Source: Ruminiclostridium sp.
GTDB taxonomy: Bacteria; Bacillota; Clostridia; Oscillospirales; Ruminococcaceae
Assembly: GCA_017635095.1 (NCBI GenBank)
Contig: JAGBMA010000023.1
Coordinates: 1 to 34,060 of the forward strand
Direction: 5' to 3'
Length of the DNA: 34,060 bases
The notes beneath the pieces were generated by a model, which was not told the DNA's origin, searched no databases, and saw only the letters and a program-made list of their open reading frames with translations. The position numbers and the translations under genes are program-made. Positions 14,533 through 34,060 of the stretch are shown piece by piece. Each line of letters starts with the position of its first letter. Position 1 is the first letter of the stretch.

Positions 14533-14931
14533 ATGGAAAATATGACAATTGCCGAAAAAGTTTCCTATATCAAGGGTCTTGCAGAGGGTCTTAAACTCGA
14601 TACAAACACAAACGAGGGCAAGCTCCTCACAGCGATCATTGATGTTCTCGGCGATATCGCACTCAACATCGAGGATATAGACAGCGACCTTGCCGATCTT
14701 ACAGATGTTGTCGGTGACGTTGAGGACAGCCTCATGGATCTCGAAGACGAGGTTTACGGCGAGAGCGACGATGACGATGAGTTTGACGATGAAGAGGATA
14801 TGTACGAGATAACCTGTCCCAACTGCAATAACACAATAACCACCGATTTTGATGTTATCGCGGACGGAAGTCTCGAATGCCCCAACTGCGGCAGCACTAT
14901 CGAATTCGAACTCGACGACGAGGACGAATAA
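14533..14931 (+). CDS. CD1247-like protein with C-terminal zinc ribbon
   Basis: A 132-aa protein. The N-terminal half (AEKVSYIKGLAEGLKLD, then DVLGDIALNIEDIDSDLADL) is a helical domain of the kind annotated as CD1247 N-terminal in Clostridia. Residues about 70-90 are a run of acidic residues. The C-terminal part has two CPNC pairs (ITCPNCNN and LECPNCGS), which should bind one zinc ion. Function is unknown. A conserved position right after efp suggests a translation or RNA-related role, but this is inference. The ATG follows GTGAGGTAATT; the longer upstream frame from 14422 crosses the hairpins and is rejected. Confidence 0.85.
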   Translation: MENMTIAEKVSYIKGLAEGLKLDTNTNEGKLLTAIIDVLGDIALNIEDIDSDLADLTDVVGDVEDSLMDLEDEVYGESDDDDEFDDEEDMYEITCPNCNNTITTDFDVIADGSLECPNCGSTIEFELDDEDE

Positions 14932-14942
14932 GTCAGAAATGC

Positions 14943-14972
14943 ACAGTGAGCGGAAATTTGTCCGGTCACTGT
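14943..14972 (+). terminator. Hairpin terminator candidate after the CD1247-like gene
   Basis: ACAGTGAGCGGA (14943-14954) pairs with TCCGGTCACTGT (14961-14972) at 11 of 12 positions around AATTTG, just after the stop codon. The tail CCATTATATATT is AT-rich but has no T-run, so termination may be incomplete. The FMN riboswitch transcript begins a few tens of bases downstream. No promoter with well-spaced boxes was seen for it, so it may use a weak promoter in the AT-rich stretch 14973-14995. Confidence 0.5.
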
Positions 14973-15092
14973 CCATTATATATTCAATATCAAACAATTC
15001 TGTTTCGGGGCGGGGTGAGAATCCCCACCGGCGGTCAAAGTCCGCGAACGCTCGTATGAGCGCCGAACCGGTGGAACTCCGGTACCGACGGT

Positions 15093-15500
15093 AAACCGAA
15101 GCACCTATGGAAAGCTGCAAAAAGCAACATCATTCACGCGACCGGCTGCCGAACCGTGCAGAGCGGGAATACCGGATCATCTCCGAACCGGGGCAAAACC
15201 GCGGAGCCTGCACCCACTCCGGGTGAGGACGCAGAACGACAGGATGTTGTTGAGCAGCTCCCAAGAGCGCGTCAGGACGACGTGCCCGTAGGAGCTACGA
15301 AACTGCACGACACAGTTAAAGCAGCTCCCAAGAGCGCGTCAGGATGACGTGCCCGTAGGAGCTACGAAACTGCACGACGCAGTTAAAGCAGCTCCCAAGA
15401 GCGCGTCAGGATGACGCGCCCGTAGGAGCTACGAAACTGCACGACGCAGTTAAAGCAGCTCCCAAGAGCGCGTCAGGATGACGCGCCCATAGGAGCTGCG
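15093..15500 (+). other. RNA domain of about 400 nt inserted in the riboswitch P6 loop
   Basis: The insert has a unique part (about 15093-15253) and a tandem array (15254-15499). In the unique part CAACATC (15125-15131) pairs with GATGTTG (15243-15249), closing an inner region with GTGCAG (15156-15161)/CTGCAC (15208-15213) and CACCC-ACTCC-GGGTG (15211-15225). CCTATGG (15104-15110) is perfectly complementary to CCATAGG (15487-15493), which could close nearly the whole insert as one arm extending P6. No group I or II intron motifs, transposase or convincing coding sequence were recognised. Origin and role are unknown. Confidence 0.7.
15254..15499 (+). repeat. 67-bp tandem repeat, 3.7 copies, each a double hairpin
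   Basis: Copies start at 15254, 15321, 15388 and 15455 with an exact 67-bp period; the last is cut after 45 bp. Each unit contains an outer stem GCAGCTCC/GGAGCT(A or G)C, an inner stem GCGCGTC/GACG(T or C)GC, and then a second hairpin AACTGC-ACGAC-GCAGTT. Copies 1 and 2 carry GACGTGC and copies 3 and 4 GACGCGC, both of which pair with GCGCGTC. Copy 4 alone has GGAGCTGC, giving a perfect 8-bp outer stem. The array ends in GAAA, fused to the riboswitch 3' strand. Confidence 0.93.
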
Positions 15501-15547
15501 AAAGTCCGGATGAAAGAAACAAAAAGAGTACCAATAAAAAAGTACCG

Positions 15548-15577
15548 CCCCTTTGTCAAGCACAAAGGGGTCTTTTT
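15548..15577 (+). terminator. Intrinsic terminator of the ribU riboswitch
   Basis: CCCCTTTGT (15548-15556) and ACAAAGGGG (15562-15570) form a perfect 9-bp stem with a 5-nt loop, followed by TCTTTTT. It lies about 25 nt after the riboswitch P1 and 26 bp before ribU, the expected place for a ligand-controlled terminator. No obvious antiterminator partner was identified by eye. Confidence 0.93.
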
Positions 15578-15603
15578 GTTCCTCCGAAGAAAGGAGAAAA
15601 ACC

Positions 15604-16236
15604 ATGTCAGCAGAGACAAAAACAGCAAACAGACCAACTATCCGCACAGAGCGCGTGACCGGCGTGCGCTTCCTGACACTTACGGCGATACTGACCGCGA
15701 TCGCTGTGGTGCTGCAGTACCTTGAATTCCCGGTGCCGTTCTTCATTCCGCCGTTTGTGAAGTTCGACTTCTCCGACCTTCCCGCCATACTTGCGGCATT
15801 CCTTGTATCACCGGTCTCGGGAGTATCGGTGTGCCTGCTGAAGAACCTTATCCACCTTGCGGTATCCCAGTCCGCCGGCGTGGGCGAGCTGTGCAATTTC
15901 CTGCTGGGGGCGGTAATGGTGATACCCTCATGGGTCATCTACCGCGTAAAGCCCACAAAGCTCACGGCGCTCATCGCTATGATCGTGGGTTCGGCAATAG
16001 CTGCGGTGGTGAGCATCTTCATCAACTACTACATCACATACCCGTTCTATGAATCATTCATGCCGATTGACGCGATCATCGGCGAATATCAGAAGCTCAA
16101 CGGCGGTGTCGGCACCCTCTGGGACGCGCTGATATGGTTCAATATGCCTTTTACTTTCGTTAAGTTCATGATAGACTCCATTATCGTCTTTTTCATCTAC
16201 AAACCGCTTGCGAGAGCGATACGCAAGAAAGACTGA
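15604..16236 (+). CDS. ribU: Riboflavin ECF transporter substrate-binding subunit RibU
   Basis: A 210-aa membrane protein that captures riboflavin and delivers it together with the shared ECF energizing module (EcfA, EcfA', EcfT), which is not in this window. About six hydrophobic segments are visible. The family signature KFDFSDLPAILAAFLVSP lies near residues 52-69, followed by GVSVCLLKNLIHL. The start chosen is the ATG 8 nt after AAGGAGAAA; the ORF extends upstream into the terminator and is not used. The upstream FMN riboswitch independently supports the riboflavin assignment. No other rib genes are nearby. Confidence 0.95.
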   Translation: MSAETKTANRPTIRTERVTGVRFLTLTAILTAIAVVLQYLEFPVPFFIPPFVKFDFSDLPAILAAFLVSPVSGVSVCLLKNLIHLAVSQSAGVGELCNFLLGAVMVIPSWVIYRVKPTKLTALIAMIVGSAIAAVVSIFINYYITYPFYESFMPIDAIIGEYQKLNGGVGTLWDALIWFNMPFTFVKFMIDSIIVFFIYKPLARAIRKKD

Positions 16237-21844: not shown

Positions 21845-22280
21845 CAGCGTGTCCGGCGCTTGTTGCCCTACGCGGGCAGCGTGTCCGGCGCTCACGCGCT
21901 GTCTTCGCAGACGGCGCTGGGGCTACGCGCCCCCGTCCCGCGGCAGGGCAAGCCCTGCACCCGTAGCTGCCGCGATTGAACCGTAAGTAATCATAAAGAC
22001 ATATAAAAACAGCAGACCCGATTGTTACGAGTCTGCTGTATCTTTTTTGTTGTGTAGAAACTGTCCCGTTTAGCGCGGCAGCTACTAAAGTTTTTTTGGA
22101 AAGAGAGAGGGGTCGAGGGGAGAGAGAAAAGCCTTTTTTTCTAAAAAAAGGTTTTCTCTCTCCCCCGCGGGGTGTGGGGCAGAGCCCCACACGCGCGTCC
22201 GCAGACGCGCTGAGGGTGCAGGGCGGAGCCCTGCCGGGGCGTGGGGCAGAGCCCTGCCGGGGCGTGGGGCGGAGCCCCAC
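21845..22280. repeat. Composite palindromic repeat block A between araD and mcp
   Basis: A 436-bp non-coding block. The left part (21845-21974) contains CAGCGTGTCCGGCGCT twice (21845-21860 and 21877-21892). The middle holds a terminator between 10-bp inverted repeats AGCTGCCGCG (21965-21974) and CGCGGCAGCT (22074-22083). The right part has a long hairpin (22117-22165: GGGGAGAGAGAAAA then T7, and A7 then TTTTCTCTCTCCCC, with one bulge) followed by short palindromes such as GTGGGGCAGAGCCCCAC and a 23-bp unit repeated twice, ending exactly at the mcp stop codon. The same block occurs inverted at 28375-28730. No gene is evident. Confidence 0.88.
22009..22049. terminator. Terminator in block A
   Basis: ACAGCAGAC (22009-22017) and GTCTGCTGT (22031-22039) form a perfect 9-bp stem followed by ATCTTTTTT on the plus strand. 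AAAAA precedes it, so it can also act on the minus strand. It would end the araD transcript and the opposing mcp transcript. Confidence 0.88.
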
Positions 22281-33937: not shown

Positions 33938-34060
33938 CCCTCAGCGCGTCTGCGGACGCGCGTGCGGGGCTCTGCCCCACACCCCGGCAGGGCTCCGCCC
34001 TGCACCCTCGGCGCGTCTGCGGACGCGCGTGTGGGGCTCTGCCCCACGCCCCGCGGGGGA
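33938..34060. repeat. GC-rich palindromic repeat at the right edge
   Basis: Two near-identical units each contain GCGCGTCTGCGGACGCGC followed by a GGGGCTCTGCCCC palindrome, with CAGGGCTCCGCCCTG between them. It is the reverse complement of the right part of block A (22165-22275) and probably continues beyond the window, since the last bases CCCCGCGGGGGA match the junction to the long hairpin in the other blocks. Confidence 0.85.

Follow-up and report, generated by a model that had tools for sequence, protein, structure and literature searches.

The closest described system is the FMN riboswitch (RFN element, RF00050), in whose aptamer P2-P6 and P3-P5 form almost identical domains, according to the part of PMC3764141 drawn on here. 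Riboswitches accept inserts at specific sites, as stated in the corresponding part of PMC2258182. A dispersed, structured, tandem module in variable number is known from the pneumococcal BOX element, and the excerpted text of the BOX study describes one such element that separates a pair of T-box riboswitches upstream of trp, both of which its authors think still function (Croucher et al., 2011, PMC3049150).

The locus analysed here lies in a window (the whole stretch of DNA, 34,060 nucleotides). With the FMN riboswitch it shares the core, P1 to P6, the terminator and the ribU context; it differs in L6, which is 410 nt long in the window and 2-3 nt in compact relatives. It resembles the inserts of PMC2258182 in being helical and in sitting where a loop tolerates it; P2, P3 and P5, and not P6, are named in the part of that paper used, whereas the window insert is in L6, far longer and composed of a dispersed repeat. 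BOX, as far as the excerpt goes, sits between two riboswitches but the window repeat sits inside an aptamer, and the two were compared by architecture. No earlier report of FMN-riboswitch inserts, of repeats in riboswitches or of like repeats was found in the open-licence literature, insofar as its text was accessible. The locus is a real, if rather unexpected, form of a known riboswitch, and the best explanation for it is a dispersed structured repeat in tolerated loops.

The features are given below. R1 denotes a covariance model built from nine riboswitch-resident units of the repeat, and G numbers denote genomes.

15001..15092, + strand: aptamer 5' half (P1 5' strand, P2, P3 with short L3, P4, P5, P6 5' strand); RF00050, 68.5 bits
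15093..15234, + strand: 5' part of the insert, not in the tandem array; 96% match to G010 over the first 26 nt
15235..15302, + strand: two-hairpin repeat unit 1, mostly within the array 15253-15503; R1 86.5 bits (unit in model)
15301..15369, + strand: two-hairpin repeat unit 2, in the array; R1 85.1 bits (unit in model)
15368..15436, + strand: two-hairpin repeat unit 3, in the array; R1 92.1 bits (unit in model)
15435..15503, + strand: two-hairpin repeat unit 4, in the array; R1 94.3 bits (unit in model)
15503..15521, + strand: aptamer 3' strand (AGTCC of L6/P6, GGATGAAAG, P1 3' strand GAAACA); exact match, unique in the window
15547..15577, + strand: intrinsic terminator with T tract; terminator prediction
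15604..16236, + strand: ribU, ECF transporter substrate component; PF12822, E 2.7e-31

Repeat units as drawn overlap their neighbours by 2 nt, and the final A of unit 4 is the first base of the aptamer 3' strand.

The RF00050 covariance model gave 68.5 bits at 14997-15110 against a gathering threshold of 66.2, the sole match in the genome of origin (3.8 Mb, 236 contigs, 98.29% complete). The threshold was passed although the 3' end was misplaced before the insert: 15093-15110 is a forced, false end at which five of eight P1 pairs are non-standard. The 3' strand AGTCCGGATGAAAG has a single exact occurrence in the window (15503-15516), and no rival within 2 mismatches of it was found window-wide, including close to 15092, where the earlier note had said that a better strand would count against its reading. 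Shuffled controls contained on average 0.25 matches at up to 2 mismatches (at least one in 23/100), the real match being exact. Since CCGACGGT terminates at 15092, the insert is 15093-15502, or 410 nt; a large P6-loop insert of about 400 nt had been claimed, and it is real. The usual gap was put too high at about 10 nt, as 2-3 nt separate CCGACGGT and AGTCC in compact relatives. Six P1 pairs are possible between TGTTTC (15001-15006) and GAAACA (15516-15521), and a terminator hairpin (15547-15571) with a T-rich tail and then ribU lie downstream; together with the exact and unique match, they uphold the distal strand as the likely partner. That all invariant 5' elements are present was nearly right: a single departure (T to C, in L5) was seen in the 60 columns conserved in compact relatives. 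The model score, the conserved core with P1, and the flavin-gene context with terminator place the locus in the FMN riboswitch class. Both the name ribU and the riboflavin specificity of the PF12822 gene are taken from that riboswitch context.

Independently of R1, a tandem array was found in the insert at 15253-15503, with a 67-nt period (units of 67-68 nt), 3.7 copies and 97% matches. The inserted structured RNA that had been supposed is therefore present as a tandem two-hairpin repeat of about 250 nt. Each unit consists of a small hairpin, usually with an ANGAY loop, and a larger one with an outer stem, an internal loop, a GC-rich inner stem and an ANGAY-like loop. Neither another known RNA nor a self-splicing intron exceeded its Rfam threshold in the insert, and FMN alone passed in the leader. 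The ends of the insert are complementary (15097-15110 to 15487-15500, 12 pairs and 2 mismatches), to a degree reached by only 2/500 shuffles with 30-nt ends and 7/500 with 36-nt ends; across all four long L6 inserts upstream of ribU, 0-12/500 shuffles were as good. The ends of the G016 insert are likewise complementary (3-4/500). A helix that closes the insert and prolongs P6 is only suggested, because it does not stand out in folding and its 5' arm can pair with several units. Two further short GC-rich tandem repeats, with 23-nt units, lie at 22221-22277 and 33967-34012 of the window.

Of the 71 genus genomes, 61 yielded RibU; leaders were examined at the 30 best loci, and 29 of them were parsed. 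Long L6 inserts upstream of ribU occur in the window (G000, 410 nt), G010 (146 nt), G061 (173 nt) and G108 (162 nt), so the comparison of ribU leaders proposed earlier yielded three same-genus species with the same arrangement and the aptamer core kept. In all three the AGTCCGGATG strand follows the insert, in the same place as in the window, and the number of full units varies, with one in G010 and four in the window as the extremes. RibU of these other species is 72-85% identical to that of the window. Deviations from the 60 conserved columns number 0 in G010, G061 and G108 and 1 in the window, and compact aptamers have 0 in 31/39, some of these columns having doubled as search anchors, which favours low counts. 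G061 and G108 score 58.3 and 58.6 bits with RF00050, under the gathering threshold. That the structure is an assembly artefact or chimera is scarcely credible: the assembly is fragmented into 236 contigs and may have collapsed some repeat copies, making their exact number uncertain, but the like architecture recurs in the three further genomes and three public contigs carry the same leaders.

Insertions were also found in L3. Among the 29 parsed leaders, L3 exceeds 40 nt in G066, G082, G081, G108 and G061. R1 scored 28.3, 37.9 and 48.3 bits on the L3 copies of G066, G082 and G081, and 81.5 bits in G108, whose unit belongs to the model; the 44-nt piece in G061 (16.6 bits, E 0.043) is a remnant at best. 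Clear copies are thus in L3 of four species, and G108 has them in both loops. Just upstream of the G108 riboswitch (L085 7799-7964) the repeat occurs twice more, once on each strand. With L3 and L6 removed, CGGT-AGTCCG flanks are read in both P3 and P6 of the window and several leaders.

Over 47 genus aptamers from 46 genomes, L6 is longer than 5 nt in eight. It is a plain 32-nt hairpin in G071. Other inserts were noted in L150 (G016, 113 nt), L148 (G019, 28 nt) and L149 (G022, 23 nt); those of G019 and G022 are plain hairpins, and the G016 genome is without R1 matches. In a survey of the class, an exact pattern with an L6 of 9 to 69 nt matched 16/391 genomes. The G157 match was a misread of P3 and was dropped, leaving 15/391; RF00050 scores exceed the cut-off in 13 of these, and the other two lack that confirmation. 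A hairpin is predicted for each of the 15 L6 sequences (-2.5 to -29.8 kcal/mol), and L6 is therefore a rare but recurring insertion site. The window insert is the longest observed there.

The repeat is not confined to riboswitches. R1 matched 24/71 genus genomes (E up to 0.01). There were 56 matches in the genome of origin: 8 are the array itself, read on both strands, and 48 lie in further places. When 197 genomes were sampled across the family and filtered more strictly (E up to 1e-5), three had matches: the genome of origin, one of the same genus, and a genome of another genus with one match. All seven species with resident copies are repeat-bearing, as against 21 of the 46 genomes with leaders examined (chance 0.0022), and the association holds within the 29 RibU leaders, 18 of them repeat-bearing (chance 0.020). 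In the genome of origin, 18 copies are identical over 66 nt. These share some flanking sequence (in many, from GCCCGGTTAGGAGG to AGAGGTTCCC) in different surroundings, for example L129, L138 and L145; they are often at contig ends, and L145 has an apparent inverted partner. The larger element carrying them may be a MITE. By a crude ORF call at 37 repeat loci, copies stand in either orientation relative to their neighbours; 20 loci are outside ORFs of at least 70 aa and 17 overlap one, mostly below 140 aa and possibly spurious, and the copy at L107 lies inside a 557-aa frame. Many copies, perhaps not all, are intergenic. Mobilisation by Y1/RAYT transposases was considered and rejected: PF01797 (E up to 1e-4) was found in 18/71 genomes and 5/24 repeat carriers (p 0.58), and at that threshold the genome of origin has none.

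Covariation was assessed in 62 R1 matches (56 distinct rows). Changes on both sides were found at 20/21 pairs, 95.8% of cells pair, and 0/500 shuffles reached any of five measures in this 56-row alignment, which was fitted to the model, a procedure that favours signal, and includes some antisense readings of arrays. In the nine resident units alone covariation is modest (5/21 pairs, a count reached by 38/500 shuffles). A scan of 20 loci with dispersed copies gave five tRNAs and nothing else, so no Rfam family was matched by the repeat in the loci scanned. TwoAYGGAY (RF01731) gave 0/71 genomes at E up to 0.1, yet control genomes gave no match either, and it was not reported in the leader at E up to 10.

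These data bear on whether the insert is an added functional domain, a second sensor or scaffold kept by selection because it affects the control of ribU. Species whose RibU is 72-85% identical to that of the window still have L6 units, double changes are seen at those 5/21 pairs among the nine resident units, and resident units form a group of their own. However, the number of units varies from 1 to 4, G107 and G074 are without an insert, the family is dispersed through genomes and found also in L3, and Rfam thresholds were passed only by FMN in the leader and tRNAs in the 20 dispersed-copy loci. We consider such a domain improbable, and the purpose-made sensor or scaffold of the earlier note is not borne out. 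A similarly small chance is given to a protein- or ligand-binding RNA module domesticated in both loops, which would provide two-input control of ribU tuned by array length.

The loops could also be CsrA sites, the array coupling ribU to CsrA or acting as a CsrB-like sponge. CsrB/RsmB RNA (RF00018) has repeated hairpins too, and CAGGAUG loops are the motif of that family. A hairpin-2 loop AGGAY is present in 7/7 L6 units compared; GGA is in hairpin 1 of 24/36 and hairpin 2 of 18/36 distinct dispersed units; a csrA gene is in 7/7 carriers; and the CsrB model gave 19.9 bits (E 0.0024) in the leader. That score is far from the gathering value of 71 bits, though, and the GGA loop is not kept across the repeat family: hairpin-1 GGA is in 2/7 L6 units, and in 0/4 L3 units at the aligned loop columns. 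Four genomes, all incomplete assemblies, have repeats and no csrA found, and over the 71 genomes repeats and csrA show no association (p 0.55). A CsrA-based role is very improbable.

The history of the resident copies was approached by comparing 11 of them (7 of 9 L6 units and 4 L3 units) with 42 sampled dispersed rows, the dispersed copies of most carriers being partly sampled. All 11 are nearer another resident than any dispersed row. The seven L6 units are 0.78-0.90 identical to the nearest resident, and identity to dispersed rows is at most 0.76 for any of the 11; the margin for the G066 L3 copy is slim (0.54 vs 0.50). An AGCA variant of the 3' internal loop is common to the L3 and L6 units of G108 and missing from the L6 units of other species; it also occurs in one dispersed copy and in L3 of G082. 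G107 is grouped with G108 on the RibU tree (98/94), as G074 is with G061 (100/99); both G107 and G074 have 2-3 nt at L6, without the repeat. The fewest changes are four for L6 and five for L3, with 12/27 inner branches unresolved, and a single old gain therefore needs several losses or transfer.

Those four L6 changes, and 5' insert flanks that differ in G061 and G108, would suit a history without shared ancestry, in which dispersed copies entered L6 four times independently. This is doubtful, given that residents are nearer each other than the sampled dispersed copies, that G000 and G010 have their 5' flank in common, and that the L3 and L6 units of G108 share the AGCA variant. An old gain with losses, or transfer, is the more probable course, fitting both the likeness among residents and the RibU tree better than four fresh insertions. 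From the directly observed dispersal, covariation and L3/L6 distribution of the repeat we infer a copying route and an order of gain and loss: the repeat may have entered the riboswitch in a common ancestor of several species, with probable copying from one of the loops L3 and L6 to the other, after which the array would have grown to four units in the window and been trimmed or lost in sister species. The short CGGT-AGTCCG flanks at both P3 and P6 could serve such copying between loops.

Folding of the whole leader was predicted with energy models that do not include FMN. The best ligand-free fold has neither P1 nor P6; pair probabilities in the free ensemble are 0.13-0.20 for P1 and 0.00 for P6, and the free energy is -232.7 against -228.3 kcal/mol with P1 and P6 forced. 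With both forced, the insert-end helix has a probability of about 0.12. Four independent large hairpins (-216.9) are worse than pairing between units. An alternative is that the array has broken or uncoupled the riboswitch, with ribU constitutive or read from another start: P6 is missing from free folding, L5 has its one departure, and the window gives the weakest RF00050 match over the cut-off in the set scanned (68.5 bits). All four carriers nevertheless retain the core, with 0-1 deviations, and strands for P1 as well as terminator-like hairpins can still be read in the sequence. No sigma-70-like promoter was found in 14850-15650, a weak point, as the region upstream of the riboswitch gave none either. 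On balance, a broken switch is unlikely.

A functional-looking FMN riboswitch with insertion-tolerant loops that host a tandem dispersed structured repeat is, in our judgement, the probable reading. Function, the mechanism of tolerance and the details of switching are what we infer here; sequence and core conservation are observed directly. L6 would be the symmetric counterpart of L3 because P2-P6 and P3-P5 are nearly identical, as the cited excerpt has it. The two loops appear pseudo-symmetric, with CGGT...AGTCCG flanks and each opposite a T-loop (L2, L5), and both may accept a helical insert provided that the partner-intercalating loop base and the closing pairs are retained. Since its units fold singly or with one another and its ends are able to pair, the insert could stand out from P6, and the distal 3' strand would still complete P6 and P1. 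Ligand-free folding predicts a possible antiterminator, 15518-15526 paired with the U tail at 15572-15580. As this pairing overlaps the P1 3' strand, a simple OFF switch is predicted: with FMN bound, P1 (15001-15006 with 15516-15521) would hold the GAAACA strand, 15518-15526 would be unable to pair with 15572-15580, and the terminator would work. The model is that of a switch that probably turns ribU off by terminating transcription.

Closely related aptamers of the genus form a natural series in which L6 ranges from 2 to 410 nt and L3 from 2 to 70 nt. Riboswitches with loop inserts are under-scored by model-based annotation, two carriers being below the Rfam threshold, and a covarying two-hairpin repeat family that matches no Rfam family in the scanned loci is pointed out. 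If the riboswitch is functional, it shows that an aptamer can house dispersed structured repeats.
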